Virus record (IMG/VR): IMGVR_UViG_3300032134_000002
Span: 1-61,321 of that record
Source of the DNA: a virus
Length of the DNA: 61,321 bases
Strand: one strand, 5' to 3'
Positions 1,847 through 53,783 of the stretch are shown piece after piece. A model generated the notes under the pieces. It saw only the letters and a program-made list of their open reading frames with translations. It was not told where the DNA came from and searched no databases. A program made the position numbers and the translations under genes. Position 1 is the first letter of the stretch. Each line of letters begins with the position of its first letter.

Positions 1847-1861
1847 ATTAGCTCTGCTTAT
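1847..1861 (-). promoter_or_regulatory. Operator within promoter of the DUF3310/excisionase unit
   Basis: ATTAGCTCTGCTTAT is a 6+3+6 palindromic operator. On the minus strand it sits in the spacer of a promoter: -35 TTGCGT (1868-1873), 17-bp spacer, -10 TAATAA (1845-1850). A bound repressor would cover the -10 box. Confidence 0.8.
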
Positions 1862-1880
1862 ATGGGTACGCAAAAAAAAG

Positions 1881-2117
1881 CTATTCGGATGGTGGGCCAG
1901 TGTGCCGATTGTCTTGGTAGTCGCAGCCGAATGACATCGTGTACGAGCCGAACCATTGTGCAAACCGCCAGTAGAATTTTGGCGTTTGATCAGGACAGCA
2001 ATCTGTGAAAACGATCCACCAAAAATAGGGCTCGCGCATCCACGCCATCATCTTCATCCGCACCGATGACGATCGATCGTGTATTGTTTGTTGTGAATGT
2101 AGGTATAGCTGTTGCAT
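1881..2117 (-). CDS. Hypothetical aromatic-rich small protein
   Basis: A 78-residue protein just downstream of the repressor gene (11-nt gap), presumably in the same transcript. AAGGGG lies 7 nt before the ATG, which supports a real start. The middle is unusually rich in Trp, Phe and Tyr (for example PYFWWIVF and KFYWRFAQWF), with two adjacent cysteines. No membrane-length hydrophobic run or known motif is evident. An in-frame ATG about 20 codons in gives a shorter alternative product. Position suggests a role in lysogeny or an accessory function of the lysogen, but nothing in the sequence proves it. Confidence 0.55.
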   Translation of the reverse strand: MQQLYLHSQQTIHDRSSSVRMKMMAWMREPYFWWIVFTDCCPDQTPKFYWRFAQWFGSYTMSFGCDYQDNRHTGPPSE

Positions 2118-2128
2118 ATACTTACCCC

Positions 2129-2833
2129 TTAAAATTGAACGCCTTTGACCACACCCATCACGGTGATCTCCGGGTCGTTTAATAAAACTACTGTAGAAAT
2201 ACCTACTTGCGTGGGGTGATGGGTGCTAACCTCATCCCCATTGATACTGTTAATTACACGGACAATACATGGCCCTTTTCCATAACGGATAAGTACCTGA
2301 TTGCCGACCTCCCAACTAGTGAGAGGGTCGATGATTGCGTACTCGCCATTGTTGTAGCGAGGTGCGTATTCATCAGTATCAATCTCGACCGCAAAGGCCT
2401 CTGAGATTGTGTGCGTCATAATTTTTGTTACCTTTCCTGATACAGGTTTCCCCGATAGGGTGAAAGAAACTGGAATTTCAACACTCGTTGTAGGGCTTAC
2501 GGCATGGAGCATACTATACTCACCAAGGCCCTTTACCAAAACAGGAAGTTCGCAACGTAACATAGATGCTACGCCCAGTACCATCAATGGATTGACGGAT
2601 ACTGCGCCCCGTAACATCTGACTGAACATGGGTTGAGTTACCCCCAGTCGAGTCGCTGCTTGTTGCTGCGTTAAGTCCATTCCAGACTTATTGTTATGTG
2701 CTTTCCATGCATTCGTGATACGCCGTGACATTTCTAGTGAGTCACGGGATATGCTCCGCTTGGGAGGGGTTATTGCACCGGTTGCGGATAGGCTAGGCCT
2801 AATTGCCGCCTTTATTTTTTTGGTTACAGTCAT
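2129..2833 (-). CDS. CI-like repressor with HTH and degenerate S24-like domain
   Basis: This 234-residue protein is the likely lysogeny repressor. Residues about 54-76 (LTQQQAATRLGVTQ then MFSQMLRG) form a Cro/CI-type HTH. Residues about 146-233 follow the LexA/CI S24 pattern: an FAVEID strand, GEYAIIDP, GNQVLIRYG and a terminal VMGVVKG. Where S24 peptidases have the nucleophile in a D-S-M motif, this protein reads DTDEYAP, and no Ala-Gly or Cys-Gly hinge is evident, so RecA-stimulated self-cleavage seems unlikely. ATG has AAGGA 6 nt upstream. The gene overlaps the 3' end of the VRR-NUC gene, and two palindromic operators lie inside that gene, pointing to autoregulation. It is the best candidate to bind the dispersed ATWAGC-N3-GCTWAT sites. 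Confidence 0.85.
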   Translation of the reverse strand: MTVTKKIKAAIRPSLSATGAITPPKRSISRDSLEMSRRITNAWKAHNNKSGMDLTQQQAATRLGVTQPMFSQMLRGAVSVNPLMVLGVASMLRCELPVLVKGLGEYSMLHAVSPTTSVEIPVSFTLSGKPVSGKVTKIMTHTISEAFAVEIDTDEYAPRYNNGEYAIIDPLTSWEVGNQVLIRYGKGPCIVRVINSINGDEVSTHHPTQVGISTVVLLNDPEITVMGVVKGVQF

Positions 2834-3233
2834 CTGGTTCCTTCTCCATACAGATTTGCGTGAGCCAGTTTGCTATCTCTCTTGCGGAGATTAACGCTGG
2901 CAGTTCTTTGAGGCCGTATCCTTGCAGCCATTGATCCTTCTCAGTGAGAAGTATCCCCCCTTCTGGGCACCCTATAATACAAGCACAGCTTATTGAATGT
3001 CCAGACATTTTTATTAGCCATGCTAATTGTTGTGCAGAGAGGTTTGGTTTTATAAGTGTTGTGTCACGTTTTGGTAGTGCCTTGATCCACTTATACTCCA
3101 CCCAGATGTTGCCTGAAGGCCCTGCGTACCAGCAGTCGGGCACACCACCTGCGTAGTTATCGTGGATTTTCCATTTGTGCATGTCTGCGGGTAAATGGCG
3201 GTGGACGGAGCGGATGTATCCATGCTCGTTCAA
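2799..3233 (-). CDS. VRR-NUC type nuclease
   Basis: A 144-residue PD-(D/E)XK nuclease of the VRR-NUC type found in many phages, thought to act on branched or recombination DNA. The catalytic core is visible as GGVPD (Asp), then WVEYK (Glu and Lys) about 13 residues later, with a downstream LSAQQLAWL helix containing a conserved Gln. The only possible start in the open frame is a TTG at 3233, because a TGA lies just upstream in frame and the next ATG would remove 17 residues of conserved-looking sequence. No good Shine-Dalgarno is visible. The 3' end overlaps the repressor gene by 35 nt and the gene hosts two operators. Confidence 0.8.
   Translation of the reverse strand: MNEHGYIRSVHRHLPADMHKWKIHDNYAGGVPDCWYAGPSGNIWVEYKWIKALPKRDTTLIKPNLSAQQLAWLIKMSGHSISCACIIGCPEGGILLTEKDQWLQGYGLKELPALISAREIANWLTQICMEKEPDDCNQKNKGGN
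2979..2993 (-). promoter_or_regulatory. Operator in putative repressor promoter
   Basis: ACAAGCACAGCTTAT matches the operator consensus at all but one half-site position. On the minus strand it falls between -35 TGGACA (2998-3003) and -10 TATTAT (2974-2979), an 18-bp spacer, about 140 bp upstream of the repressor start. It lies inside the coding region of the VRR-NUC gene. Confidence 0.65.
3013..3027 (-). promoter_or_regulatory. Second operator upstream of repressor
   Basis: ATTAGCCATGCTAAT has fully complementary half-sites. Its centre is 34 bp from that of the operator at 2979, roughly three helical turns, so dimers bound to both could interact cooperatively on the same DNA face. It is also inside the VRR-NUC gene. 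Confidence 0.7.
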
Positions 3234-3270
3234 AAGGGTAGGGCCTCTTCACAAGGGCTCCATCCGCCAT

Positions 3271-3299
3271 AAAAAGGGCACCGCTTCCGTACAGCGCCC
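3271..3299 (-). terminator. Intrinsic terminator after the ssDNA-binding-type gene
   Basis: On the minus strand GGGC-GCT pairs with AGC and GCCC (with a small GGT bulge) and is followed by five T residues. It lies 13 nt after the stop of the gene at 3312-4034 and would end that unit before the VRR-NUC/repressor unit. Confidence 0.7.
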
Positions 3300-3311
3300 G
3301 TTGGTCAGTGG

Positions 3312-4097: not shown

Positions 4098-4112
4098 ATA
4101 AGCTGTGCTTAT
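4098..4112 (-). promoter_or_regulatory. Operator/promoter of the ssDNA-binding-type gene
   Basis: ATAAGCTGTGCTTAT on the plus strand. On the minus strand it overlaps the -10 TATAAT, with TATACA 17 bp upstream as -35. A degenerate second half-site (AAGCACAGC) lies at 4125-4133. Confidence 0.85.
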
Positions 4113-4139
4113 ATATATGTATACAAGCACAGCCGCTTT

Positions 4140-8306: not shown

Positions 8307-10801
8307 AGCACCTCCTTATCAGTACTTGAAAAATGGTGCTGGATCAGTTCTTGTTGTCCGTAGTCCACTAGCTTGAACCGCTTCATAAGACCGCGTTTGC
8401 GTGAACCGTCGGCGCATTTGATACGCTCCATGTTGACGCCACGTTTACCGAGCATCTTGGAAAACTTCTCTTTGGAGAAGGCTCGACTTTCAATGGCATT
8501 ACACAGTGTGTGTAGTTCCTGCGTTGAAACGGCTTCGTCTTGGCCAGCATTGGCTACCCACCCTTTGACAATCCGTTCAGCATTCATCTGCGTGTTGATG
8601 TCATCGGCTTGAGAGGCATCTATGCAGAGGATTTTTTCTACAAAATAGTCCAGGTTAGCCGTTTTAATAGCTGTGATGAAATGGTCAATCCACGTCATTG
8701 AGGCATCACGCATCAACTTCTTGGCGTCATTATCTAATGGCTGATAGGCTTGGATAGGGTCGGCTTCAAAGGCATTGATAAACTCAACTAGATGAAACAG
8801 TTCCTGATCACGATACTGTTTCAGGTCTTCCATCATTGTTGGGTAGGTTGCTAGGATCGGCACCTCTTGACGCTTGCCAATGTTAAATCGGCGGTCTGTC
8901 TGGGAGATACGGATCACATCAATTTCGTTTGAGTTGAAACACATGTTGGCGTAGAGGCGCACTTGCTTTTGAGCCTTGTGCATACCACGCACGGTACTGA
9001 ACGTTTCAGTGACCATGTGTTTTAATTTATTCATCATCCGTGTGGACGAGATACTGTCAGTGACTTTAAATTCATCCACCACCATGAACAACGCGTCTTC
9101 GATGAAGTCGTTGAACTTCTCCTCAACGTTCTCAAGGGTTTTATAGGCTGCATGTTTGCCATACAGCGGGTAAACGATTTGGTGGAAGAACAGGCCTTTA
9201 CCTGTGCCCTCAATACCCGTGAACACCCACGCTGTGGTGAGCTTCTCCTTAGTCTGGAACGCATACGCAAACCAGTTGAAGAAATGCTCGAACTCCGCAT
9301 GGCTTGACCCGACCATGTGGTACATGATTCGGTACAGCGTGGGGCACGTTTGTTTTAATAAGTACGCTCGCCCATATTCCTTTTTGTAAAGGTCTTCCTC
9401 AGCAAGTTCCGAATGACGTAGGTACTTGGTGGGCTGGAATGTGTTCACAAACCGATTCTCGACGTCCAATTGAACATTGGTCTTTGGGTTGAACTCACGG
9501 TCCCAATCTGGGATAGGCTCTGGCAACTCCTCGCCATGGTTGGCCATGAAGTCTTTCAGGTTTGCTTTTTTTGTGTTGTTCAACCGCATGATGAGGTCGT
9601 TCTGTGTGTCGTAAGTCAGCGCGTAATGCTCATCTGTTGCGATATCCCGAAACACGTAAGGTACAGGGATGTTCGCTGAGCTAATGTCGTCACTGAACTG
9701 CTGGCAGATGGCCTTGTAAAAGTCCATGTCCACATCTTTCATTCTGAACGGCGGCTCATCTTTGAAATTGTAGACGATCTGTGGGTTTTCTTTAGGCCAC
9801 CAGTACGCGTTGCTGTCGCCCATTAAGCCATCTTTATCCTGCAAGTTGGCATAACAGAATGTGTCGTTGAAATAGGACAGGTGCATTAGGCTGCGGTCCG
9901 GGTTCGTGAGAATCTCAACCACCTTGGTGCCGTTGTTTATGCTCTGCATACGCGCCGTTTTTGAGGGTAACCCAGAGGATTTACGCAACGCTTTTATGGC
10001 TTTCGTTATTAACAGATCAATCTGCTCAGTAGTACACCCATCGAGCAGCGGGAGTAGGTCAACAGTCGGTTCTTGTTTTTCAACGAGAAGGATACGGTCC
10101 TCATCTTTAACTGGGTTCGCTACCCCTTGGAACATGGGCGGCGCAATGTAGATGAGTTTGCTGTTATCTGCGACGGTACGATCACACGGATACTTGAGCG
10201 CTAGGCCGTTGCTGCTGAGCATCAACTGACCTTCAAATACCGGCACATCGAAATTCAGCTTAGTAAGCCAGCCTTTCAATGTTTTAGGGTGCACAGGGTT
10301 CGTCAACATAAAGTCTAAGTGCATGGACAAGCGTTGTTGTTTAAGGCCTGAAGAGGCACTCGCTGTCGCAATGTAGCTGATGTTGTGGAAATCGTCCGGC
10401 AATAACTTAACCAGGTACTCGGCGGCGACTTGGATATTAGCTCTGCTTATATTCCCAGTCACAGGATAATCAGGCGTGAAGCCAAACTCCTTCGCCTTTT
10501 CTAAATTTAGGCCATCAATGTCTATCGTAATCCAGTCCGTGACCAGGGTCTTTTGGGTAAGATCCTTACGGGACTGGTTCTTCAGCTCTTTCTTTAGCTG
10601 GCCTCGAAGCAGTGCGTGGCCCTTAGAGGCATGCACCACCATGAGCTTGTGCATCTGCTGTAACCCTTCAACAGTGTTGTTGATGTGGTATACGTGAGAG
10701 TTGAATTTCGCTACGTTGGGGTAGCTCTTTTTAGTTGTAGGTGTAAATACTTTAGCGAGGCGATCACCGTTGCTCGCCTGCATGAATGTCAAAACGCTCA
10801 T
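8279..10801 (-). CDS. Primase-helicase (AEP-like N-terminus, SF3/D5-type ATPase)
   Basis: An 840-residue replication protein. ITIDIDG at 91-97 gives the Asp-x-Asp pair of archaeo-eukaryotic-type primases. Around residue 525-535 is Walker A (GIEGTGKG), and around 570-575 Walker B (FMVVDEF), followed by a sensor-like FNSNEID segment. This is the arrangement of phage primase/SF3-type helicase fusions with a DUF5906-like ATPase. It should prime and unwind DNA for the phage polymerase. The first gene of a long leftward unit, it has an operator-promoter at 10836 (leader about 26 nt). A second operator lies inside the coding sequence at 10436. The Shine-Dalgarno is weak (GGGAAA). Confidence 0.88.
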   Translation of the reverse strand: MSVLTFMQASNGDRLAKVFTPTTKKSYPNVAKFNSHVYHINNTVEGLQQMHKLMVVHASKGHALLRGQLKKELKNQSRKDLTQKTLVTDWITIDIDGLNLEKAKEFGFTPDYPVTGNISRANIQVAAEYLVKLLPDDFHNISYIATASASSGLKQQRLSMHLDFMLTNPVHPKTLKGWLTKLNFDVPVFEGQLMLSSNGLALKYPCDRTVADNSKLIYIAPPMFQGVANPVKDEDRILLVEKQEPTVDLLPLLDGCTTEQIDLLITKAIKALRKSSGLPSKTARMQSINNGTKVVEILTNPDRSLMHLSYFNDTFCYANLQDKDGLMGDSNAYWWPKENPQIVYNFKDEPPFRMKDVDMDFYKAICQQFSDDISSANIPVPYVFRDIATDEHYALTYDTQNDLIMRLNNTKKANLKDFMANHGEELPEPIPDWDREFNPKTNVQLDVENRFVNTFQPTKYLRHSELAEEDLYKKEYGRAYLLKQTCPTLYRIMYHMVGSSHAEFEHFFNWFAYAFQTKEKLTTAWVFTGIEGTGKGLFFHQIVYPLYGKHAAYKTLENVEEKFNDFIEDALFMVVDEFKVTDSISSTRMMNKLKHMVTETFSTVRGMHKAQKQVRLYANMCFNSNEIDVIRISQTDRRFNIGKRQEVPILATYPTMMEDLKQYRDQELFHLVEFINAFEADPIQAYQPLDNDAKKLMRDASMTWIDHFITAIKTANLDYFVEKILCIDASQADDINTQMNAERIVKGWVANAGQDEAVSTQELHTLCNAIESRAFSKEKFSKMLGKRGVNMERIKCADGSRKRGLMKRFKLVDYGQQELIQHHFSSTDKEVLCSKSSPLH
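10436..10450 (-). promoter_or_regulatory. Intragenic operator in the primase-helicase gene
   Basis: ATTAGCTCTGCTTAT is identical over 15 bp to the operator at 1847, yet it lies about 350 bp inside a coding sequence. No good promoter is apparent there, so it may act as a roadblock to elongating polymerase. Confidence 0.7.
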
Positions 10802-10835: not shown

Positions 10836-10850
10836 ATAAGCAGTGCTTAT
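10836..10850 (-). promoter_or_regulatory. Operator/promoter of the replication operon
   Basis: ATAAGCAGTGCTTAT is a perfect palindrome around a central G. On the minus strand the promoter reads -35 TTGACG (10855-10860), 16-bp spacer, -10 TATATC (10833-10838), so the operator fills the spacer and overlaps the -10. Confidence 0.9.
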
Positions 10851-12958: not shown

Positions 12959-13165
12959 TTATTCGGGTAACTGGTCTGGTGCAGCGGCCAATGGGCGTTG
13001 TTCAACGGTGAATGGCTGCTTGCTCTGGGTTAAATGGTCCAATAATGTCTGCTTGTTAATACGCTCACCACCTGGCAACGCCATTACATTGGGTTGCCCA
13101 GGAATTGAGGGGATCACACAGCCCTGGGTGATAATGCAGTCGTGCATCTCGTATCCGGTTTTCAT
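12959..13165 (-). CDS. Hypothetical small protein
   Basis: A 68-residue protein, first gene of the polymerase operon, 15 nt before the polymerase start. It begins MKTGYEMHDCIITQGCVIPS and has no clear domain. GGGAAGC lies just upstream of the ATG and overlaps a half-operator-like ATAAGC. The ATG is 33 bp from the operator edge, the same distance as in three other leftward units. Confidence 0.6.
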   Translation of the reverse strand: MKTGYEMHDCIITQGCVIPSIPGQPNVMALPGGERINKQTLLDHLTQSKQPFTVEQRPLAAAPDQLPE

Positions 13166-13197
13166 ATGCTTCCCGCTTATATATCTAGCTTTGAATT

Positions 13198-13212
13198 ATA
13201 AGCGGTGCTTAT
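13198..13212 (-). promoter_or_regulatory. Operator/promoter of the polymerase operon
   Basis: ATAAGCGGTGCTTAT. On the minus strand a consensus -10 TATAAT overlaps the operator edge, and TTGCCT 18 bp upstream serves as -35. A further half-site-like ATAAGC lies in the leader, joined to the Shine-Dalgarno. Confidence 0.88.
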
Positions 13213-13229
13213 GCTTTCAGGCAAGGCTT

Positions 13230-13547
13230 TTATGCCATAAAACGAGTTTCCGTGGTGTGGCTATCGAGCCACTCGATGCCTTCCTGGTGATGCAGCAATT
13301 CCTGCCCGGGTTTCTCCCAGTAGGCATCAAAAACTGCGGCCTTCCAAAAGGCAACCACTTGGTCTGACACAGGGATCTCACGTTCCATGTACACGCCGTC
13401 AAACTGCACGTCAAACACTACGTCGAAACCATCAATAAGTTTTTCATAGGTGATAACGTGGTTGCCGATGACGAGCTCAACTGTATTTCCTTGCGGGCAG
13501 GTGATGTGCTCAGAGATATTGATGAGGTTCATGTCGAAAAGGTTCAT
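13230..13547 (-). CDS. Hypothetical protein
   Basis: A 105-residue protein with an AAGGAG site 7 nt before the ATG. The middle is beta-rich (VELVIGNHVITYEKL, FDVVFDVQFDGVYM) and the end helical. No recognised family. It is the last gene of the unit that starts with the SleB-type hydrolase and ends just before the polymerase-operon promoter. Confidence 0.6.
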   Translation of the reverse strand: MNLFDMNLINISEHITCPQGNTVELVIGNHVITYEKLIDGFDVVFDVQFDGVYMEREIPVSDQVVAFWKAAVFDAYWEKPGQELLHHQEGIEWLDSHTTETRFMA

Positions 13548-13575
13548 GGGGTTTCTCCTTAAAATGAGGGTTACA

Positions 13576-13698
13576 TTACCAGTGTATTTGGTACTTTCTG
13601 AGATCGCTCGACAGCATGCATTCGTACATCCTGTCGTCGTCTTCGTTGTGCCAATGGCTTAGTAAGGTGTTTAGGTTTTGGGTCTGTTTGTTGCGCAT
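13576..13698 (-). CDS. 40-residue hypothetical peptide
   Basis: A short frame with GGAG 8 nt before its ATG, fitting neatly between two genes of the same orientation. The peptide (starts MRNKQTQNLNTLLSHWHNED) is hydrophilic, without a membrane helix. The good start context and snug spacing favour a real gene; function unknown. Confidence 0.5.
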   Translation of the reverse strand: MRNKQTQNLNTLLSHWHNEDDDRMYECMLSSDLRKYQIHW

Positions 13699-13729
13699 AA
13701 TCGTTCTCCGTAGATATGCAGCAGCCTAG

Positions 13730-14035
13730 TTACCCGATCCAGCGAGCGCCCATTATTAGGCGCATAAAAAAACGTTGCAGCCAATTAGGTCGACCATAGA
13801 AATGGAACCGACCTAAAGTTGGTGACTCCGTACGTTTTGCTAAGGGCAGGTTAGACTTAGGTTTGAATGGTTGCCTTCTCGGCACCCTTAGTTCAGTGAG
13901 CTTAGCCCCGATTGCTGCCTCCGTTCGGTTTAGGCATCTACCTAGTTTTTTATTGCTAAATTGCTGGTAGCTGTCGCGTATATAAGTAACCTCTTCTGGG
14001 GTCCACTTACGGTAATGCGAGGTAGGGTTTTTCAC
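13730..14035 (-). CDS. SANT/Myb-like DNA-binding protein
   Basis: A 101-residue basic protein. RKWTPEEVTYIRDSYQQFSN, then LNRTEAAIGAKLTELRV, has the tryptophan-anchored three-helix pattern of SANT/Myb-like and GcrA-like domains common in phages. The rest is basic and may add DNA contacts. The start is GTG, with AAGGAG 8 nt upstream. Compare the gene at 19317, which has a similar N-terminal helix set. It may be an early transcription regulator. Confidence 0.65.
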   Translation of the reverse strand: MKNPTSHYRKWTPEEVTYIRDSYQQFSNKKLGRCLNRTEAAIGAKLTELRVPRRQPFKPKSNLPLAKRTESPTLGRFHFYGRPNWLQRFFMRLIMGARWIG

Positions 14036-14047
14036 GGTTATATCTCC

Positions 14048-14278
14048 TTATGGTTTGTTGCGGAAGTCTGAGTCGTCTTCCGCTTTTTGTCGGAGGCCAT
14101 CGACGATGTCAGTGGCTTCTCCAATGTTGCGTACATCTTCTGGCTCATTGAGCCTAAAGGCATACGCGACAATCTGTAGCTGAGCAATCTCTATATCACT
14201 GAGTATTGCCGAAGGGTAATATGCCCCTTCAAGGGCATCACATATTGCAAAATATTCGTGGGCTTTAACAAAGCGCAT
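14048..14278 (-). CDS. Hypothetical helical protein
   Basis: A 76-residue acidic, helix-rich protein with TAGGA upstream of its ATG. It lies directly after the SleB-type hydrolase gene. No cysteine cluster, signal or membrane segment is visible, and the family is not recognised. Confidence 0.6.
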   Translation of the reverse strand: MRFVKAHEYFAICDALEGAYYPSAILSDIEIAQLQIVAYAFRLNEPEDVRNIGEATDIVDGLRQKAEDDSDFRNKP

Positions 14279-14287
14279 TGTCTGTTC

Positions 14288-14683
14288 CTATCTATAAAAC
14301 CTGTGTCTACCAATCGTTGCTACAGGCTCAAGTGAATTTGCCCAGCCCGGATGAACATACGTTGCATGGTAATGCGTCGCGCCGCCTACCAAATCAGGTA
14401 ATTCGGGCGATAGGGCCAGTGATGCAATCTGATTTGCTCGTAACCAAGCAGTGGCGTTTTTTGGCGTATCATTGGCCCCGTCACATGCCCAGGAAAACTG
14501 ACATTTGTGCAGTCGACCCGGGTACTTATTGTGGTACACCACACCACATACATTATCTGGGTATGTTGAGCTCTCCACTCTGTTCAGTACGACCTGCGCA
14601 ACAGCCAGCTGTTCGATCAGCGGTTGTGAACGTGCTTCGTGGTACACGTTGAGTGCAAGGCAAAAAAGGGCTTCAGTAATCAT
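14288..14683 (-). CDS. SleB/Hydrolase_2-type cell wall hydrolase
   Basis: A 131-residue muralytic enzyme of the SleB (Hydrolase_2) family. It contains ALNVYHEARSQP with the catalytic Glu16, then AVAQVVLNRV, VCGVVY and CQFSW, all family signatures. It would cleave peptidoglycan glycan strands. No signal peptide is seen. The ATG is only 6 bp from the operator and the predicted transcript start overlaps it, so the mRNA may be leaderless; no Shine-Dalgarno exists. It is unusual because it heads an early leftward operon, far from the lysis genes at 53.4-54.4 kb. Confidence 0.85.
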   Translation of the reverse strand: MITEALFCLALNVYHEARSQPLIEQLAVAQVVLNRVESSTYPDNVCGVVYHNKYPGRLHKCQFSWACDGANDTPKNATAWLRANQIASLALSPELPDLVGGATHYHATYVHPGWANSLEPVATIGRHRFYR

Positions 14684-14689
14684 AATATT

Positions 14690-14704
14690 ATTAGCGGTGC
14701 TTAT
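14690..14704 (-). promoter_or_regulatory. Operator abutting the SleB-type hydrolase start
   Basis: ATTAGCGGTGCTTAT. On the minus strand its last four bases begin a TAATAA or TAATAT -10, and TTAACA is a possible -35 upstream. Confidence 0.8.
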
Positions 14705-14752
14705 TTATTGTTAATGTACAGGGTGCAATGGGCGTTGGTCAACAGTTATTAT

Positions 14753-14767
14753 ATAGGCAGTGCTTAT
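14753..14767 (-). promoter_or_regulatory. Second operator upstream of the SleB-type hydrolase
   Basis: ATAGGCAGTGCTTAT has one deviation from consensus. It is centred 63 bp (six helical turns) from the operator at 14690. A TATAAT lies at its leftward edge on the minus strand. Confidence 0.65.
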
Positions 14768-19310: not shown

Positions 19311-19325
19311 ATTAGCTCAGCTTAT
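19311..19325 (-). promoter_or_regulatory. Operator/promoter of the 19278-14771 unit
   Basis: ATTAGCTCAGCTTAT. Minus-strand promoter: -35 TTGTCC (19332-19337), exactly 17-bp spacer, -10 TAATAG (19309-19314). The stop codon of the gene ending at 19317 lies within the operator. Confidence 0.9.
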
Positions 19326-21450: not shown

Positions 21451-21465
21451 ATAAGCCGTGCTTAT
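21451..21465 (-). promoter_or_regulatory. Operator/promoter of the 21416-19317 unit
   Basis: ATAAGCCGTGCTTAT. Minus-strand promoter -35 TTGACC, 18-bp spacer, -10 TATTAT, the latter overlapping the operator. The operator edge is 34 bp from the start codon. Confidence 0.88.
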
Positions 21466-21473: not shown

Positions 21474-21752
21474 TCAAGACTTATTTTCGTCTGCGAGTAA
21501 ATTAGTTAAATAGGCATCGGCCTGGGCCCGGATGTCCTTGACCTGATCCAATGCCCGCTGCTCGTTGTGCGCTGTGCCTTGTCCAAGGGCATCATCGTGC
21601 TCCTGTTGGAGGCGTTTGCGGATGGTGTTGTGTAGGGTTGTCTTTGTCATCCCTGTCATTTGTGCAGCCTCTCTGATGCTGTAGCCACCGTGATTGACTA
21701 AGGCGACTGCGGCATCCTTGACTGCGGGATGGATGAATTTACCTTGTGGCAT
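21474..21752 (-). CDS. Small HTH DNA-binding protein
   Basis: A 92-residue protein. YSIREAAQMTGMTKTTLHNT is a classical HTH of the psq/resolvase type, followed by a basic patch and a helical tail. TAGGAG precedes the ATG. It is the final gene of the ArdA-containing unit. The first codons and Shine-Dalgarno region closely repeat those of the gene at 21965 (both begin MPQG). A regulatory role is probable; target unknown. Confidence 0.65.
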   Translation of the reverse strand: MPQGKFIHPAVKDAAVALVNHGGYSIREAAQMTGMTKTTLHNTIRKRLQQEHDDALGQGTAHNEQRALDQVKDIRAQADAYLTNLLADENKS

Positions 21753-21761
21753 TGCTTACTC

Positions 21762-21968
21762 CTAACACGCGGTCAGTTCGTTGATTTCATGGCCGTGTCT
21801 ATCGGCCCACTGAGATAAGTGTGCAACCACCTCTTTCCATGTGTTGTAGGCCTCTGGTGGCCCCCAAATCTCTTCCATTTCGGCACCGTTTGCCCATGTG
21901 CCTACCATCAGTGCGGCTCCATCTGGCTCCCACTCGTTGTAGCAGTCAATGTTTTCTATTGTTTTCAT
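21762..21968 (-). CDS. Hypothetical acidic protein
   Basis: A 68-residue protein with AGGAGG 5 nt before its ATG. Contains Trp-rich segments (NEWEPDGAALMVGTWANGAE). It overlaps the upstream zinc-ribbon gene by ATGA. Not recognised. Confidence 0.6.
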   Translation of the reverse strand: MKTIENIDCYNEWEPDGAALMVGTWANGAEMEEIWGPPEAYNTWKEVVAHLSQWADRHGHEINELTAC

Positions 21969-22132
21969 ACGTCCTCCTGCCCAATTTCGGTTTGCGCGGC
22001 GATCACTTCACAATTTGTGCAGTAGATTGAGTAGCCTTCGCCGACACACGTTGCTGCTTCATATTCAGCACATCCAACACATAACTCGCCGCTAAACAAT
22101 TTGCGTGAGGTGGCGTCCATACCTTGTGGCAT
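21965..22132 (-). CDS. 55-residue zinc-ribbon protein
   Basis: A short frame starting MPQGMDATSRKLFSGELC. It carries CVGC and CTNC pairs about 20 residues apart, a complete zinc ribbon. AGGAG is 7 nt before the ATG, its start overlaps the upstream stop, and its own stop overlaps the next start. The metal site and spacing support a real gene. Confidence 0.6.
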   Translation of the reverse strand: MPQGMDATSRKLFSGELCVGCAEYEAATCVGEGYSIYCTNCEVIAAQTEIGQEDV

Positions 22133-22320
22133 TACATACTCCTGTAGTTTTGGTTGACCAAATACTGGTCTTCACCTACAAGTGTAACAAAACCACGGCG
22201 CAATGCCTTCTCTAATAACGATTCTTCGTCCAACTCGAAATTGAATGTGGGGGCAAAAGCTACCCACAATTGCTGGCGGGTGAGGGTGACGACCTCGTCT
22301 GTAAGCTCTGTTTGTGACAT
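22132..22320 (-). CDS. Hypothetical small protein
   Basis: A 62-residue protein with AAGGAG before its ATG. Helical, acidic N-terminal half; no domain recognised. A 32-bp GC-rich repeat (22339-22370) lies directly upstream in its leader. Confidence 0.55.
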   Translation of the reverse strand: MSQTELTDEVVTLTRQQLWVAFAPTFNFELDEESLLEKALRRGFVTLVGEDQYLVNQNYRSM

Positions 22321-22338
22321 AATCTACTCCTTGCCCAA

Positions 22339-22370
22339 TGGGCGTTGTGCGCTGTGCGTTGTGCGCTGGT
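22339..22370. repeat. 32-bp dispersed repeat, copy 1
   Basis: Exactly repeated at 22912-22943. It is built of near-tandem GCGTTGTGCGC-type units. Both copies lie in the leader region of a leftward gene, upstream of the Shine-Dalgarno. Shorter pieces (ATGGGCGTTG) recur at about 12990, 14729 and 24365. Confidence 0.8.
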
Positions 22371-22387
22371 GTGGGTAAGGCTAGGAA

Positions 22388-22879
22388 TTATTCCTGATTG
22401 CGAAAGTAATGGCCGTCAAACTCGATGTAATCCACCATCAGATCACGCGCGAAAGCGTCATAGTCAATGTATAACTGCATAAACTCCGGCACATTAGGTA
22501 AATAAATCTCATCGAAGAAGTTTTCTGCGAATTCACGATCTGAGCCCCATTGCCCTTGGTAGCGATCTTCTATATCGTCCAGCTCAATGCCTAGATCCAG
22601 TCCAGCGCAATAGGCTTCGGCGGATAGATGGCTGCTTTCGATTAGATCCATCAACTCCCAAAACTTATCGCTAATATGTGACTCATTTATATAGTCGTCA
22701 GGGATATCCTCCCAATCTTGAAACATCAGTTCGGGGTCATCTTCATCACTATGCAACTCCAAACAGGCTGTATAAAATCCCTCACGGTCGTCATAGTTAT
22801 TTAATGTCATCCACTTGCCGGCTAAAGAGCCGTTGTTGTACTTGGCATAGGTGCCAACGTATATTTGTGCAATCATCAT
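22388..22879 (-). CDS. ardA: ArdA-type antirestriction protein
   Basis: A 163-residue, very acidic protein with the ArdA hallmarks: an N-terminal QIYVGTYAKYNNGSLAGKW segment, then MFQDWEDIP and repeated acidic helices. ArdA mimics DNA and blocks type I restriction enzymes. Length is close to the usual 165 or so. GAGG lies 7 nt before the first of two consecutive ATGs. It is the first gene of its unit; no operator is evident upstream, so it may not be repressed like the others. Early expression would protect incoming phage DNA. Confidence 0.92.
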   Translation of the reverse strand: MMIAQIYVGTYAKYNNGSLAGKWMTLNNYDDREGFYTACLELHSDEDDPELMFQDWEDIPDDYINESHISDKFWELMDLIESSHLSAEAYCAGLDLGIELDDIEDRYQGQWGSDREFAENFFDEIYLPNVPEFMQLYIDYDAFARDLMVDYIEFDGHYFRNQE

Positions 22880-22911
22880 GGGTAATCCTCGGTTAGTTCA
22901 GCATGGATAGC

Positions 22912-22943
22912 TGGGCGTTGTGCGCTGTGCGTTGTGCGCTGGT
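22912..22943. repeat. 32-bp dispersed repeat, copy 2
   Basis: Identical to 22339-22370. It lies 33 bp upstream of the ArdA start, at the edge of the gene-free repeat region. Confidence 0.8.
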
Positions 22944-22982
22944 CAATGTTCTATTTGCGACGTTGGACAGGAGATTTGTCCA

Positions 22983-23402
22983 TTTGCTGTCCCAAAATGG
23001 CATTTGCTGTCCCAGATATTACTTTGATGAATGGTTTAGGTGGTTAGTATACAGTAATATGGATAGTAGTCTGGTCAATTGGTATGACCCTTGGATAATC
23101 TCCTGTCCCAAACGGCGATTTGCTGTCCCAAAAGGGCGTTTGCTGTCCACAACGGTAAACTCGGAAATAGTGATACTGCTCGCTAGCCCTGTGATACCAA
23201 GGGTTTCAGAGCGTCGTAAAATCAGGTATCATTGTGGACAGCAAATGAAAAAAGGGCCTAATTTGCTGTCCACGCTACAGTCCGCTGGTGGCAAGGCTTT
23301 CAAGCGCATCTGGACAGCAAACCACCTTTTTTATTTCTTATATTCATGAAAAAACAGTGTCTATGGAATAACCAGTATACTGAAAGTCAAAAACTGCTGT
23401 CC
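22983..23402. repeat. Iteron-like TTTGCTGTCC array; candidate replication origin
   Basis: Exact TTTGCTGTCC cores start at 22983, 23003, 23119, 23139 and 23262 on the plus strand and are inverted at 23236-23245 and 23312-23321. Degenerate copies start at 23099 and 23393. Neighbouring copies are phased at exactly 20 bp (22983/23003 and 23099/23119/23139). The copies at 23236 and 23262 form a perfect 13-bp inverted repeat (23235-23273). The surrounding stretch 22880-23642 has no credible gene. Phased iterons with a hairpin near an AT-rich tract are typical of initiator-dependent origins. Confidence 0.7.
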
Positions 23403-23594
23403 ATGATAATGTCGACATTATTTGAACTTTGTATGTAGCACTAAGGCTAGAGGCCAATTTAGGTACGTTAGTGACCGCTAACATTGAACGGTCATTCAAT
23501 ATAAAACTGTTCAAAACGCGACATTCGTTGTCCAGTGGCCAGCGCCCGGCGATCCGTGCCCATTGTGCAGGGCCTGGCAGTGTGACCGGGGCAT

Positions 23595-23617
23595 AAAAAA
23601 AGGGCCCCGAAGGACCC
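23595..23617 (-). terminator. Intrinsic terminator
   Basis: On the minus strand GGGTCC-TTCG-GGGCCC is followed by seven T residues, 26 nt after the stop of the gene at 23643. It isolates the gene-free repeat region from leftward transcription. Confidence 0.9.
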
Positions 23618-23642
23618 TCTTACTGTGCACCTTGTGCGTTGG

Positions 23643-24332
23643 TTAGATCAAGTGCGCGGTGGTCTGTGCCACCTTGTGCAGCTGCACCACGACGTCGTCC
23701 CGTTGGGCGTTGGCCGCGAACTTCGCTTCACTGCGGGCTTGGTTCTCCTGCTTACGGCGCTTCATGTCACGCTCTTTGGTAATCCACAACTCGTAGCGCT
23801 CCTCGCGCGACGTCGTGGGTTCCATGCCGAAGCTCTTGTTGAGCAACACGATGTCAGCGACGGCCTTGTTGTAACGCTCGGAGGCGTTGGTAATGGCCTC
23901 GAACGCCATCTCGTTGACCTGGATCTTGTTTTGATCCGTGTCGCTGGCCACCGTGCTTTGCGCGCCGCTGGCGTCCTGTGTGCCGTACACGCTGCCCGTG
24001 GCGCGCACCTGGACGAGCGACTCAGGGTCACCGGCCACGGACTGCGCACAATACTTCAGCAGCTTCTGGTTACTGTCCATGGCGAGGCCATAGTCGTTGC
24101 CGAACATCTGGTCGTAAGACGCGGGCGTCTGGAACGAGGCGATGTTGGCCCAGTTGGCAATGATACCGAGTTGCGACACGGCGCGATCGGCAATGAAATC
24201 CACCTGCTCTTGCAGATAAGTGCGAAGGGCCTCGGTCAGGGTAACCGTGTCCGAAGTCTCTGCACTCTCTGTCCAAGGTGCGTCGGTGGTGTTGATGTCG
24301 GCAGCAAGTGCCTTAGTAAGTACTTTAGTCAT
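23643..24332 (-). CDS. Hypothetical protein
   Basis: A 229-residue soluble protein; GGAG lies upstream of ATG 24332. Mostly helical, with a basic coiled-coil C-terminus (ITKERDMKRRKQENQARSEA). No known domain. Base composition is visibly richer in G+C than its neighbours and codon choice differs, which suggests separate acquisition. It ends at an intrinsic terminator and overlaps the preceding gene by 8 nt. Confidence 0.6.
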   Translation of the reverse strand: MTKVLTKALAADINTTDAPWTESAETSDTVTLTEALRTYLQEQVDFIADRAVSQLGIIANWANIASFQTPASYDQMFGNDYGLAMDSNQKLLKYCAQSVAGDPESLVQVRATGSVYGTQDASGAQSTVASDTDQNKIQVNEMAFEAITNASERYNKAVADIVLLNKSFGMEPTTSREERYELWITKERDMKRRKQENQARSEAKFAANAQRDDVVVQLHKVAQTTAHLI

Positions 24333-24513
24333 GATGCTTCTCCAATGTATGTTGTGCCCGACGATGGGCGTTGTTGCGAACGAACTGCTCGCGGGTCTGC
24401 GTTGGGAAATCGGCTTCCAGCCCAATGTCCCATCGATACTCTGCTCGGCGTTCCGCTGCCAGCAGCTGCTCTAGGGGATCAGGCCCTAGCCCTTTTGGTA
24501 CGATGTCGTACAT
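24325..24513 (-). CDS. Hypothetical small protein
   Basis: A 62-residue basic, helical protein beginning MYDIVPKGLGPDPLEQLLAA. AAGGAGG upstream of ATG 24513 supports this start. It overlaps the following gene and shares its high G+C. Unknown. Confidence 0.55.
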   Translation of the reverse strand: MYDIVPKGLGPDPLEQLLAAERRAEYRWDIGLEADFPTQTREQFVRNNAHRRAQHTLEKHHD

Positions 24514-25731: not shown

Positions 25732-25746
25732 ATAAGCACTGCTAAT
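25732..25746 (+). promoter_or_regulatory. Operator/promoter of the HNH gene
   Basis: ATAAGCACTGCTAAT with a rightward -10 TAATAT (25743-25748) and a weak TATACG -35. A leftward -10-like TATAGT also overlaps it, so it may control both directions at the divergence of the arms. Confidence 0.8.
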
Positions 25747-26177: not shown

Positions 26178-26192
26178 ATAAGCAGTGCTTAT
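26178..26192 (+). promoter_or_regulatory. Operator/promoter of the terminase unit
   Basis: ATAAGCAGTGCTTAT, identical to the site at 10836, with TTATAG at its right edge as -10. The predicted start of transcription (about 26201) is 3 nt before the small terminase ATG. Confidence 0.85.
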
Positions 26193-31952: not shown

Positions 31953-31967
31953 ATAAGCTGTGCTAAT
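31953..31967 (+). promoter_or_regulatory. Operator/promoter of the noncoding RNA candidate
   Basis: ATAAGCTGTGCTAAT with rightward -10 TAATAT (31964-31969); the -35 (TTCCCT, 31941-31946) is weak. No protein gene starts downstream before the terminator at 32137. Confidence 0.8.
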
Positions 31968-32166: not shown

Positions 32167-32181
32167 ATAAGCAGCACTAAT
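32167..32181 (+). promoter_or_regulatory. Operator/promoter of the capsid gene
   Basis: ATAAGCAGCACTAAT has a deviation in the right half (ACTAAT). TAATAT (32178-32183) is the likely -10; the -35 is poor. The predicted transcript starts about 14 nt before the capsid ATG. Confidence 0.7.
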
Positions 32182-41900: not shown

Positions 41901-44453
41901 AAGACCAAGGTCCATATAATTTGGGCTGAAGACGTTGAGGCTTTTAACGAACAAAATCCAGGTGCCATCGAAGGCGCAGTTATAAAGCATGCCCTTGAGG
42001 GTAAGCAAAAAGCATTTGTTGCCCAGCGAGATGGTAATGCGTACATCTTCATATCTAAAAACTTAGACAGCCCATACCGCCAGGCCATAACCGCAGCGAT
42101 TTTGGGGCACGAGCTCGGGCACGTTTTGTTTAAAGAGAGTATCAATAGCTTGTCAGAGGCCAACCTCGCTAGACTGAAAAAGGCCTACCAAGAGCAACTT
42201 AAAACTAAGAGCAATAAACAGTACACAAATGATGAAGTGGGTTTTGAAGAATGGTATGCAGATCAGGTGGCTGTATGGGCCGAGAAGCAGACCAAGACCC
42301 CAAGTAAATTCACTGAGGCCCATTTCAAACGAGTTGCCGCAAAGATGCGTGAGTTGTGGCGCAAGTCGCGGCAGTTTGTTAGGAGAAATCTAAAAGGGCT
42401 GAACGAAAAGCAGAGGCAGGCTGTTAGGACTAATAAGGACCGTTTCACTCTCGAAGAAACCTTTGAACAATACATGGGTGCTGTTTTAGAGAGTGTCCAC
42501 GGGCAGGAATCGACTGAACAAACGTCCAATGACACAGAGTTCCAGCGCACCTTTGACAGACTACAAGGCACGCCCGTTCTGACCAAGTTACGCGAGGCCA
42601 TGCAACAAGTGTGGGACCTCGGACTCGTTGATGGTTTGCTGAAAGTTATCCTCTCCGCTGACCAATACGCACGGGTGCGTCTAGGAAAATATGGCCCAGC
42701 GTTCGCCAACCTATTTTACCACCGCACCCAAACGTCGAACGATACAAAAGGCGACATGCTCAACAAGCAACGCCATGCCCTAGACAAATGGAATGCACAG
42801 TTTGCCGAGATACTAGGTGAAGATAAAGAGCACGCAAACAAAGTTCTTGCAGAAATGCAGGCAGGCGTAAATATAGACCAGTCTATAGACCCCAAAATGC
42901 GGAAACATCTAGCTGACTTCTTCGAGCGTTTCCACCGCGACTACCTAAAAAAACGTATCCCAACAATAGGGAAGATACGAAACTACTTCCCTATTATATA
43001 TAACACGCAAGCTATTCAGGCAAACCAAACTGCGTTCATCGCCGAACTGAAAAAAGGGGGGCTTACCCAGCAAGAAGCCCAAACCGTAACGCGAACAATG
43101 CTCGAAAACGACGGGGCTTTTATAGAGGACATACCGCACCACGAATTGTTCGGCCCTCAGTTCAATGCCAAGATGCGGCGCAAGCTGAAAAATATGGACA
43201 CCAAGGCATTACAGGACTTAGGTTTCTACCAAAACCCCATGGTGGCAGTACAACTCTACCTAAAACAGGCGACCAAACACGCCGAGTACAATGTCATTAA
43301 GGATGAGGCAGAGGCGCTCATCAACAAAATGCCACCAAAGCAACGCGCACAGGCCCGTAAAATAGTGCTCGGGTATATGGGCCGTTTGGGGGCACACATT
43401 GACCCTACGTGGAACAAATACCAGTCGTACATCGCTGCGTTGCAGTTTGCCACGACCTTACTATTTTCAGTTGTCGCATCGTTTACCGACCTCGGCAACC
43501 CGATTGTTCGGGCAAAAGACATGGACGGTTTTAAAAGTGTACTGAAGAACTGGCGCGCATACATGAGCAAGCAAAGCCGCGAAGAGATGATCGAATTTGC
43601 AGAGCGCATCGGAGCTGCATCACGCGAGGCTGTTCAAGAGGCTTTGCACCAAGCGTACAACTCAGAGTTCATTGATCCGGGCGCACGCAAATGGTCTGAT
43701 AAGTATTTCAAGATGATTGGTTTGGAGCAGTGGACCCGAATGACCCGAATTATCGCAGCTAATATAGGGCGTGATTTTATAGCGAACCACGCCAAAAAAG
43801 CAGCAGCGGGTGATGTACGGAGTGCCCGTTATTTGAGGGAGTTGGGCCTTGATCATGAGACTGCGACTAAGGGGTATAACCGCGAAACTGACACGATAGA
43901 CCTAGCAACGCCGGAAGGCGAAGCAGTACAGGAGGCCATCCTCAAGTTCGTGGATGAATCCATCATCAGACCAAACCCCGCACAGCGTCCTACTTGGGCG
44001 AGTGACCCACATTACATGTTGGTATGGCAGCTGAAAAGTTTCTTCTATACGTTTGGCCAGATCATAGTCGGTGGTGTTGCACGAGAGATGCAATCGCGAT
44101 GGGCAGAAGGGGATAGGGCGAAAGCAGCGTTGCCAGCCATGATTATGTTCGCCGCATTGTTACCGCTAGCAGCGATCGCACTCCAAACGCGCGAAATGAT
44201 TAAAGGGGCATTCAAGGACGACGATCGAGAGGACCCAGAACAAGAGACCCTGGATTACTTATTCGAGCTAGTAGACCGTGCCGGTATTTTAGGCCCAATG
44301 TCCGTTATTAAAATGATGAACGACGCAGGGGACTACGGGCGTAGCGGAGTGGTTACTGCACTGGGCCCAACGGCGGGAACACTTGAAACATTCTTCACTG
44401 GAGATATGGGCGACCTAGCAAAACGTCTAACCCCCATTTACTCCCAATTATAA
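38943..44453 (+). CDS. Giant internal virion protein with zinc metalloprotease domain
   Basis: An 1836-residue protein, the largest in the prophage. Residues about 90-170 have hydrophobic, glycine-rich stretches. Residues 690-960 include three near-copies of a QLERELDASAET module and a Lys/Pro repeat (KPKPKPKVKAKAQPKPK). Around 1056 is HELGHVLFKE, an HExxH zincin motif, with Glu in FEEWYADQVAVWAE about 45 residues later as a probable third ligand. The C-terminal 600 residues are helical. It resembles the polyvalent ejection proteins of podoviruses, where enzymatic domains travel into the host with DNA. Its stop codon lies inside the operator at 44450. Confidence 0.8.
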   Translation: MSGFDIDQQIADLEKQLALETKSNGAIGDIDLLAADLEAGQVMTDQNLSAIEAGFEAGRKGLISSKHTAAAAFNYLAGDEATALEHLKKAEPIDGQIGRLSSQYASFEEFIEDPGFSNFAEMSVFKLGQAVPSAIESFAAGTAGAAVGFTSGVGVGAIPSFVGGVVAKGQMKRMVRDAIIDYSKGNASKEAVDVAQQALKLAAIKSFTKKSAVVGAMSSGYYQGVSSSFKESMVTGQDPTDAAGIAALIGVPFAVADVAPEILFVKSLAKLSKLKKATSPLKVFAGSVVRQGSAETLAEGSQESMIVAQRFQQDPNYDKARAVMRIADSAYSGLVAGGALGGGSGTIKATIASARNILDSTRQQIHEKTAPDAESTINNFEFDDLSPEGMATVPLNELLYAVQDTQQGQTLEADPITQANAAAAIQELNRRAEEMGQNRFQELVRRELAQGTDPQEDRLSEIEQEVFNETDLPEAGATEQRTAHGELEEQPQGFEERLLGKNKKGDGYVPGSRAIRTRMKKLQEENPGRQYRLVQKDGAEFIEEVIESSLDVSEIVNEGTIKARSGTQQGGKDRTLQATDPQGKKISLSPAELAHAGMRANNKDKANASHMTYPQLLMSGFLRMIQELADRGFVIDLDALPASTVIAKANGKTYTWQRLKKAWAARKYTEEGSSFDGKAAKEERLIETEDSVVETMRQIEQLERELDASAETGAQQETSGQQEMQLERELDASAETSGQQEMQLLFDGQSINDQIAAAENELAELDSSREDQASELERNEEVETDTIAMGEAQAAQDAKKARILDEDGNPITYPTRRGTKPKQQRKTTPKQKQEVFSKEEIEENEEALKAEMRLEGMKPIREQIEQLERELDASAETSGQQEIQPLFDGQSINDQIAAAENELAEVAKARQKPKPKPKVKAKAQPKPKPKPKPKPKVKAKAQPKPKPKPKPKSKLHKRDMGKVSVWGTFPDLFANYANAIISAVGIKTKVHIIWAEDVEAFNEQNPGAIEGAVIKHALEGKQKAFVAQRDGNAYIFISKNLDSPYRQAITAAILGHELGHVLFKESINSLSEANLARLKKAYQEQLKTKSNKQYTNDEVGFEEWYADQVAVWAEKQTKTPSKFTEAHFKRVAAKMRELWRKSRQFVRRNLKGLNEKQRQAVRTNKDRFTLEETFEQYMGAVLESVHGQESTEQTSNDTEFQRTFDRLQGTPVLTKLREAMQQVWDLGLVDGLLKVILSADQYARVRLGKYGPAFANLFYHRTQTSNDTKGDMLNKQRHALDKWNAQFAEILGEDKEHANKVLAEMQAGVNIDQSIDPKMRKHLADFFERFHRDYLKKRIPTIGKIRNYFPIIYNTQAIQANQTAFIAELKKGGLTQQEAQTVTRTMLENDGAFIEDIPHHELFGPQFNAKMRRKLKNMDTKALQDLGFYQNPMVAVQLYLKQATKHAEYNVIKDEAEALINKMPPKQRAQARKIVLGYMGRLGAHIDPTWNKYQSYIAALQFATTLLFSVVASFTDLGNPIVRAKDMDGFKSVLKNWRAYMSKQSREEMIEFAERIGAASREAVQEALHQAYNSEFIDPGARKWSDKYFKMIGLEQWTRMTRIIAANIGRDFIANHAKKAAAGDVRSARYLRELGLDHETATKGYNRETDTIDLATPEGEAVQEAILKFVDESIIRPNPAQRPTWASDPHYMLVWQLKSFFYTFGQIIVGGVAREMQSRWAEGDRAKAALPAMIMFAALLPLAAIALQTREMIKGAFKDDDREDPEQETLDYLFELVDRAGILGPMSVIKMMNDAGDYGRSGVVTALGPTAGTLETFFTGDMGDLAKRLTPIYSQL

Positions 44454-44464
44454 GCACCGCTTAT
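44450..44464 (+). promoter_or_regulatory. Operator/promoter of the tail gene unit
   Basis: ATAAGCACCGCTTAT, overlapping the stop codon of the giant gene. TTATAT at its right edge is the likely -10, with TTTACT about 18 bp upstream as -35. An alternative extended -10 (TGATATACT) lies at 44472-44480. Confidence 0.85.
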
Positions 44465-52730: not shown

Positions 52731-52732
52731 TA

Positions 52733-53056
52733 ATGATTGTATATAAGTTAACTTCGACCTTCTATTTTGAGACTGAGCTGGAAGTTGAAGATATTGTATT
52801 GGATGACTACACAGTAAGTGTAGCTCCCCCAAGTGACAGCATTAATCCTAGATGGATAGATAATCAGTGGGTCGATGTGTCTGACGAAGTTCGTGATAAC
52901 GAGGCTCAGGAGCAACGGAACCAAATAGACATAAATTTGGCTGCTATGGAATACCTAAGCTCAACTGACTGGTATGAAATCAGAGCTATCAACGGAAAAC
53001 CCGTCCCCGAAGATATTTTACAAAAGCGACAAGAGGCAAGAGAGGCTATCGTATGA
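52733..53056 (+). CDS. Fibre-assembly-like protein, interrupted by TGA
   Basis: A 107-residue protein with the outline of small tail-fibre assembly proteins (WIDNQWVDVSDE, then a helix with KRQEAREAIV at the end). It starts 3 nt after the second fibre gene. After its TGA (53054-53056) the same frame stays open for 17 more codons and reads A-E-P-T-E-E-P-T repeats until TAA 53108-53110. The tail is acidic and lies just before the next gene. Either TGA is a recent nonsense change or it is read through. Confidence 0.65.
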   Translation: MIVYKLTSTFYFETELEVEDIVLDDYTVSVAPPSDSINPRWIDNQWVDVSDEVRDNEAQEQRNQIDINLAAMEYLSSTDWYEIRAINGKPVPEDILQKRQEAREAIV

Positions 53057-53114
53057 GCAGAACCAACCGAAGAACCAACCGAAGAACCAACCGAAACCGA
53101 AGAGGCTTAACCCT

Positions 53115-53339
53115 ATGAGTAACAACACCGTAATGATTAATGACAGCAGCTATGTGTTTGATGACATGTCGGAAACAGCACAAGCGGCATATCAGCAGCT
53201 TTTATCGCTGCGTAACCAGATGGCTGATCTATCCATGCGACAGCAACAGATCGCCGCAGCACAGTCAGTGTTTGAGCAAGCGCTGGGAGAAGAGTTAGCC
53301 AAGCAACCAGAAGAAGCTGAGTTAGCCGCAGAAGGCTAA
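53115..53339 (+). CDS. Hypothetical small helical protein
   Basis: A 74-residue protein starting MSNNTVMINDSSYVFDDMSE, then a Gln/Ala-rich helix. The ATG follows the TAA of the preceding frame by 4 nt, and GAGG in that frame can act as its Shine-Dalgarno. Similar small helical proteins occur near podovirus lysis genes; function unknown. Confidence 0.6.
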   Translation: MSNNTVMINDSSYVFDDMSETAQAAYQQLLSLRNQMADLSMRQQQIAAAQSVFEQALGEELAKQPEEAELAAEG

Positions 53340-53349
53340 GGAGTGACGT

Positions 53350-53754
53350 ATGAATCCCATCCTGACATTTATTGGCAATATCCTGACGGGCGGCGGGGTG
53401 GTCACCGAAGTGGTGAAGACCGGCGCGGCGTTTGTTAAGGGTAAGATCGAAACCAAGCGCGTGGCAGTTGAGGCGGATAACCGTATTCGCCAAGAGTTGC
53501 TGCGGCAAGGTGGCAGTTGGGATGAGATTCACGCACAAAACGCAGGCAATAGCTACAAAGACGAGTTTTGGACCATTATTTTCGCCATCCCATTGGTCAT
53601 GTGCTTCATTCCGTCCCTGGTGCCTTATGTTGTCGAGGGTTTTGCGGCCTTGGACGGCATGCCGGAGTGGTACCGCTATGCAGTGGGCACATTAGTTGCC
53701 GCCAGTGTTGGATTTCGCAAGCTTACGGACGTAATGGGCAAGCGAAAAACTTAA
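53350..53754 (+). CDS. Putative holin (3TM type)
   Basis: A 134-residue protein with an amphipathic N-terminus (NILTGGGVVTEVVKTG), a hydrophobic segment at about 73-95 (WTIIFAIPLVMCFIPSLVPY) and a second at about 105-122, plus a basic end (DVMGKRKT). This matches phage 3TM-type holins encoded near endolysins. AAGGAG precedes the ATG. It is followed by a new operator-promoter. Confidence 0.75.
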   Translation: MNPILTFIGNILTGGGVVTEVVKTGAAFVKGKIETKRVAVEADNRIRQELLRQGGSWDEIHAQNAGNSYKDEFWTIIFAIPLVMCFIPSLVPYVVEGFAALDGMPEWYRYAVGTLVAASVGFRKLTDVMGKRKT

Positions 53755-53768
53755 CTTTGCTATATAAT

Positions 53769-53783
53769 ATAAGCAGTGCTAAT
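53769..53783 (+). promoter_or_regulatory. Operator/promoter of the lysis unit
   Basis: ATAAGCAGTGCTAAT in a promoter with -35 TTGCTA (53757-53762), 17-bp spacer and -10 TAATAC (53780-53785). The predicted transcript starts about 6 nt before the next ATG. Confidence 0.88.

Follow-up and report, generated by a model that had tools for sequence, protein, structure and literature searches.

Temperate phages of the textbook type repress one or two promoters and leave the rest to a regulatory cascade. Lambda CI acts at six operators clustered at two early promoters, and the phiC31 repressor, with its conserved inverted repeats, has dispersed symmetric sites, some of them at promoters. The C1 repressor of phage P1 has 22 dispersed operators, which are asymmetric 17-mers (PMC8546580). 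Cluster A mycobacteriophages (L5/Bxb1) carry 20 to 30 sites genome-wide, with consensus and repressor diverging together (PMC6550527), and for MrpR of SPbeta, a protein of tyrosine-recombinase fold, a 15-bp element (SPBRE) is found in about ten promoter regions (PMC10516654). In this study, we closely examined a palindrome, ATWAGC-N3-GCTWAT, that occurs at 17 sites in a 61,321-base IMG/VR contig (IMGVR_UViG_3300032134_000002; its whole length is here called the window). With a probability of about 0.88, we read these sites as operators for the CI-fold repressor that the prophage itself encodes (2129-2833); this protein is predicted to bind them and to repress the adjoining genes.

Palindromic sites and their promoter context

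The dispersed-operator observation is confirmed: all 17 coordinates listed for the palindrome in a first-pass annotation are present, 14 as exact copies and three with one mismatch (Table 1). Exact palindromes occurred 0.013 times on average and once at most in 300 Markov shuffles, and spacers of 0 to 8 other than N3 gave zero exact matches in the window. The weight-matrix scan of the prophage that had been proposed earlier, here with a symmetrised matrix built from the sites and 30 shuffles as the null, cleanly set apart exactly 17 sites. These scored 17.3 to 28.6, compared with a peak of 16.1 in the shuffles, and the runners-up scored 13.9 (43749) and then 9.1. The conserved core spans 17 bp, TATWAGCNNNGCTWATA, with a T at the left flank in 16 of the 17 sites. 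The position ranking eighteenth (43749-43763, within an 1836-aa gene) is a weaker operator-like site absent from the earlier list.

Gene calls in the window are mechanical open reading frames (ORFs). Thirteen of the 17 sites either precede genes, in non-coding DNA, or straddle the boundary of such an ORF, and three are intragenic, namely 2979 and 3013 in a conserved small gene upstream of the repressor gene and 10436 in the primase gene. With one mismatch allowed, 10 of 22 sites have a mechanically called start no more than 90 nt downstream, compared with about 2 expected (P = 2e-5). The earlier statement that nearly all sites stand directly upstream of the first gene of a unit holds for most of them, but not for the three intragenic ones, for 44450, which overlaps a stop codon, or for 31953, which is far from the capsid gene (236 bp). 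A distance of 32 to 34 bp between operator edge and ATG, described for four leftward units, was found at 10836 (34), 13198 (32), 21451 (34) and 19311 (32). At 19311, the 32 bp are counted to an ATG preceded by AAGGAG; the mechanical GTG start is only 8 bp away.

Using approximate hexamer weights, we found that the real contexts of the sites are better sigma70-like promoters than the same 15-mer placed elsewhere in the window (combined P about 1e-12) and than contexts upstream of other genes (P = 2e-11). The -10 box usually starts at operator position 12 to 15, and the -35/-10 spacer measures 17 to 19 bp. Overlap of a sigma70-like promoter with the downstream edge of the operator is clear at early sites and weak at 26178, 3013, 19311 and 53769. 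The layout had been called -10-integrated, which is apt for about 11 to 13 sites, mostly early ones, but fits some late sites poorly.

The CI-like repressor

Homologs of the 234-residue repressor were found at loci L005-L014 and L141-L145, while direct searches returned none among cultured phages and none in the genome contigs (genome_contigs). An AlphaFold2 (AF2) model built from 38 homologs, with a mean predicted local distance difference test score (pLDDT) of 69, replaced a poor model from eight sequences (pLDDT 38), and Foldseek matched it to a lambda-186 hybrid with an E value of 1.8e-9. The N-terminal lambda-type helix-turn-helix is present according to hidden Markov model matches to lambda CI and to VIA-align (Z 12.1, 87 residues, 2.2 Å). 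A C-terminal domain of the S24/LexA fold is likewise present, with Z scores of 8.9-9.1 to the lambda CI C-domain over 105-108 residues at 3.6-3.8 Å; its pLDDT is about 70-87 except for the loop 198-219. The Pfam S24 family is reached by one homolog (L180) and not by the window repressor. As modelled, the window repressor has the full lambda-CI/LexA fold with both domains.

In the profile alignment, Gln56 and Gln67 of the repressor fall on lambda Gln33 and Gln44, a pair which we take to contact A2 of the lambda operator. The lambda half-site TATCACC and the half-site TATWAGC of the window have T1, A2, T3, A5 and C7 in common, as well as the same operator length of 17 bp. From the fold, the glutamine pair and the likeness of the operators, we infer that this repressor is the natural reader of the sites. 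By inspection of the alignment only, the Ser/Lys dyad for self-cleavage is not kept (Thr153 and Arg192 stand at those positions), and by inspection no Ala-Gly cleavage site is visible in the linker. Because the dyad appears replaced and no such site is visible, an antirepressor would be a more likely route of inactivation than SOS cleavage.

At loci L005-L011, two operators lie at the repressor gene with the same mismatch in the repressor-promoter operator and the same 34-bp spacing. The constancy of this mismatch looks as if the repressor-promoter operator were tuned to be weaker. In the window group, both operators fall within the small conserved gene (2799-3233) that immediately precedes the repressor gene. 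Its product shows a GGVPD...VEYKW pattern, which by eye resembles a PD-(D/E)xK nuclease, and is without a Pfam match.

Conservation and turnover in related phages

The contigs compared are metagenomic, and some of them are incomplete. The same motif, which the first-pass annotation had suggested looking for in related prophages, was found at the same genes as in the window in the close relatives G001 (63.7 kb), G006 and G020, and a degenerate second copy ~25 bp upstream of the 4098 site is intact in relatives. The site within the primase gene forms a 16-nt run, TATAAGCAGAGCTAAT, that is identical in four genomes, with third codon positions only 29% identical overall. In the region of 2979, the 20 nt of ATAAGCTGTGCTTGTATTAT, which cover the operator and the -10, lie within a gene and do not vary among four genomes, and at 3013 the sole base that differs among relatives falls in the unconstrained spacer. 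On this comparison, the three intragenic sites are constrained at the DNA level. Constrained sites inside genes (10436, 2979 and 3013) favour the view that many sites are elongation-blocking stoperators, as in mycobacteriophage L5, and not promoter operators. We consider this unlikely, since most sites lie in promoters and, being symmetric, have no orientation, whereas L5 sites are asymmetric, follow transcription and are mostly found outside promoters (PMC6550527).

Where the repressor has diverged, or where none has yet been seen, the same promoters carry other 6-3-6 palindromes with AGTACY, ATWGGY or ATTAGY half-sites, as listed for the capsid gene in Table 1. One such case is the prophage of P. 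haliclonae, which resides in a sequenced bacterium and encodes a repressor 25% identical to that of the window. Its gene order is that of the window (small nuclease-like gene, two operators, repressor, integrase), and TATWGG-N5-CCWATA sites lie at its early units and at terminase, capsid and primase. The 5.5-Mb genome has 11 exact copies of this palindrome, eight of them in the prophage, and each of four bacterial genomes has between 0 and 2 copies of the window motif.

These counts bear on whether a host regulator recognises the sites, with the phage exploiting host control. The tRNA-Asp of the window matches one from a gammaproteobacterial genome at 99% identity over 79 nt and, together with the flanks, suggests a host that is gammaproteobacterium-like, no finer. 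We regard host control as very improbable, as the motif is nearly absent from the four bacterial genomes, the P. haliclonae palindrome is concentrated in the prophage, and related phages have different motifs at equivalent positions, which a fixed host site would not show.

A search baited with the early helicase yielded about 40 further loci with a CI-like gene nearby. Six whole contigs (G400, G413, G402, G403, G401 and G406) contain 5 to 14 exact ATWAGY/ATTAGY sites each; in these bait-derived contigs the sites are concentrated upstream of gene starts, and G400-G403 have at most 2 matches at any other spacing. The 56.4-kb contig G002 (L102-L104), with a portal 63% and a capsid 66% identical to those of the window, lacks repressor and integrase. 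Exact sites are absent from this contig, and its capsid and terminase genes are without any site. Dispersed 6-mer dyads are not above shuffles in BcepIL02, KPP25, Acidovorax phage AP1 and Manatee Spring phage (first 50 kb), the sole dyad excess in the AT-rich Manatee Spring phage being TA-repeat dyads.

Several observations weigh against assigning the sites to the repressor. G002 has 13 one-mismatch ATWAGY-N3-RCTWAT sites, mostly intragenic, compared with 0-3 at other spacers. Two contigs with an integrase and a related repressor, G404 (L250-L252) and G405 (L247-L249), show no clear dispersed palindrome, and in G414 sites are present with the repressor not detected. In the window, the -35 boxes of the late sites are weak and several lie only 11-22 bp from start codons, the promoter geometry there being putative. 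(The one-mismatch sites of G002 were also considered as a decayed operator set, which we rejected; they are mostly in genes and not at orthologous places.)

Poor sigma70 promoters at some late sites would suit activator-dependent promoters, and a PrtN/HTH_17-like protein is encoded at 1396-1686. Both points favour a different regulatory protein of the phage (Cro-like, PrtN/HTH_17-like or an activator) as the binder, with the CI-like protein acting elsewhere. Such an arrangement seems to us distinctly unlikely: site presence tracks the CI-like repressor, in both the window group and P. haliclonae the promoter of the repressor gene is flanked by two sites, operator length and pattern fit a lambda-like helix-turn-helix, and the sites overlap the -10, which is not a normal activator position. 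Conservation of position, co-occurrence, turnover with repressor divergence, the two operators at the repressor gene and the CI fold strongly support the earlier proposal that the 234-residue repressor serves operators throughout the prophage, although the binding itself stays a prediction.

Because different palindromes occupy the same promoters where repressors have diverged, the regulon appears to recur, with operator turnover, in a large group of phages known mostly from metagenomes. Recognition helix and operator appear linked as a pattern over a few groups. On balance, we lean towards the view that phages of 50-63 kb, forming a large and mostly uncultured group, use a CI-fold repressor as a genome-wide silencer. 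Operator positions would be inherited in this group, with operator sequence and recognition helix changing together to give a series of heteroimmune pairs, 10-17 sites being rewritten per specificity change.

Prophage layout, proposed mechanism and known systems

The window is an integrated prophage including its borders, because the tRNA-Asp core is repeated at both ends and the same core is found in G001 between homologs of the genes at both window ends. Its leftward arm carries the early genes (repressor, helicase, exonuclease, primase and polymerase) and its rightward arm the terminase, portal, head, tail and lysis genes; among cultured phages, KPP25-like podoviruses come closest, with a portal identity of 38-39%. 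A small HTH_17/PrtN-like protein (1396-1686), adjoining the integrase and under the 1847 operator, is a candidate excisionase or activator. Within a 974-aa late gene, a 126-bp tandem repeat, its length a multiple of three, is present in six copies that are 72-98% alike (56745-57674). Further dispersed repeats of the GCGTTGTGCGCTGTGCG type and CAATGGGCGTTG lie at 21548-24375, 404-449 and 12974-14746, and TTTGCTGTCC has seven copies at 22983-23321. Among nine genomes checked, TTTGCTGTCC and GCGTTGTGCG are present only in the window and G011.

Table 1. Features of the window and capsid-gene palindromes of related phages (positions with a minus sign are upstream of the capsid gene)
Feature	Position	Strand	Details
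tRNA-Asp	51-127		left end of window
attL core, tRNA-Asp 3' end	109..127	+	19-nt direct repeat of 61195-61213
Tyrosine integrase	239..1435	+	PHROG integrase match
Predicted operator	1847..1861	-	DUF3310 / HTH_17 (PrtN/excisionase-like) unit beside integrase; kept in G001, G006, G020
CI-like repressor, 234 aa, lambda-CI/LexA fold	2129..2833	-	PHROG repressor match; PDB profile match to lambda CI; AF2 model
Predicted operator, 1 mismatch	2979..2993	-	in spacer of putative repressor promoter TGGACA-N18-TATTAT
Predicted operator	3013..3027	-	34 bp upstream of 2979 operator, just upstream of -35
Predicted operator/promoter	4098..4112	-	Pam3 gp34-like gene
Predicted operator	10436..10450	-	within primase gene (roadblock or internal promoter)
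Predicted operator/promoter	10836..10850	-	primase; -35 TTGACG
Predicted operator/promoter	13198..13212	-	TTGCCT-N18-TATAAT; 68-aa ORF / DNA polymerase unit
Predicted operator	14690..14704	-	6 bp upstream of 131-aa endolysin-like gene
Predicted operator, 1 mismatch	14753..14767	-	second copy for 131-aa endolysin-like unit
Predicted operator/promoter	19311..19325	-	626-aa ORF
Predicted operator/promoter	21451..21465	-	TTGACC-N18-TATTAT; small early gene
Predicted operator	25732..25746	+	upstream of 137-aa gene, start of late arm
Predicted operator	26178..26192	+	11 bp upstream of terminase small subunit
Predicted operator	31953..31967	+	236 bp upstream of major head protein
Predicted operator, 1 mismatch	32167..32181	+	22 bp upstream of major head protein
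Predicted operator	44450..44464	+	62 bp upstream of 124-aa late gene; overlaps preceding gene's stop codon
Predicted operator	53769..53783	+	upstream of 73-aa gene and endolysin-like gene (lysis unit)
attR core	61195..61213	+	host DNA after core resembles tRNA-Val start (read by eye)
Capsid-gene palindrome, window	-236/-22		ATAAGC
Capsid-gene palindrome, G010	-199/-38		ATTAGC
Capsid-gene palindrome, G004	-219/-32		AGTACY; roughly window spacing
Capsid-gene palindrome, P. haliclonae	-176		ATWGGC
Capsid-gene palindrome, G402/G403	about -226		ATTAGT
Capsid-gene palindrome, G023			ATTAGT

In the mechanism that we propose, one repressor dimer per operator would bind the 17-bp TATWAGCNNNGCTWATA, its lambda-like helix-turn-helix reading the A at position 2 with the paired glutamines. 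RNA polymerase would be blocked at many promoters, as the operator occupies their spacer and the first part of the -10. Many early units have an operator of their own, as do those for terminase, capsid and lysis, so that the repressor would maintain lysogeny by shutting many promoters directly and simultaneously, and not only through one switch and a cascade. The repressor gene would be autoregulated through the weak, mismatched operator in the spacer of its promoter and the perfect one just upstream of the -35, and the primase-internal site may serve as a roadblock.

Direct repression of late units would tighten lysogeny, and immunity would be hard to escape through mutations in single operators. 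If this reading is right, a CI-type repressor is wired directly to capsid, terminase and lysis promoters, an arrangement that recurs in many environmental phages. Since site positions persist while site sequences change, these phages would offer aligned repressor/operator pairs that could show how immunity specificity evolves under the need to change many sites together.

Like lambda CI, the system combines the CI repressor fold with a 17-bp pseudo-palindrome and a glutamine pair (aligned here, with the A2 contacts as assumed for lambda); unlike lambda CI, its 17 sites, single or in pairs, are spread over both arms and reach the late genes. With P1 C1 it shares a set of about 20 operators across the genome, here 17 on both arms (1847 to 53783) and presumably served by a single repressor. 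In contrast to P1 C1, the operators are symmetric (17-bp core) and sit mostly within promoters, and the repressor is of the CI fold. As in cluster A phages, there are many genome-wide sites whose sequence changes with the repressor between phages. However, the window sites are palindromic and promoter-embedded, with 3 of 17 intragenic, whereas L5-type stoperators are asymmetric, oriented with transcription and mostly off promoters. As in SPbeta, one prophage repressor would be paired with a short element in many promoters, but its fold is that of lambda CI and not that of a tyrosine recombinase. Dispersed operators as such have precedents in P1, L5 and SPbeta. The apparent novelty is the pairing of a CI-fold repressor with operators that are symmetric and embedded in promoters, recurring over a broad phage group; these features are not combined in P1 C1, cluster A phages or SPbeta MrpR.

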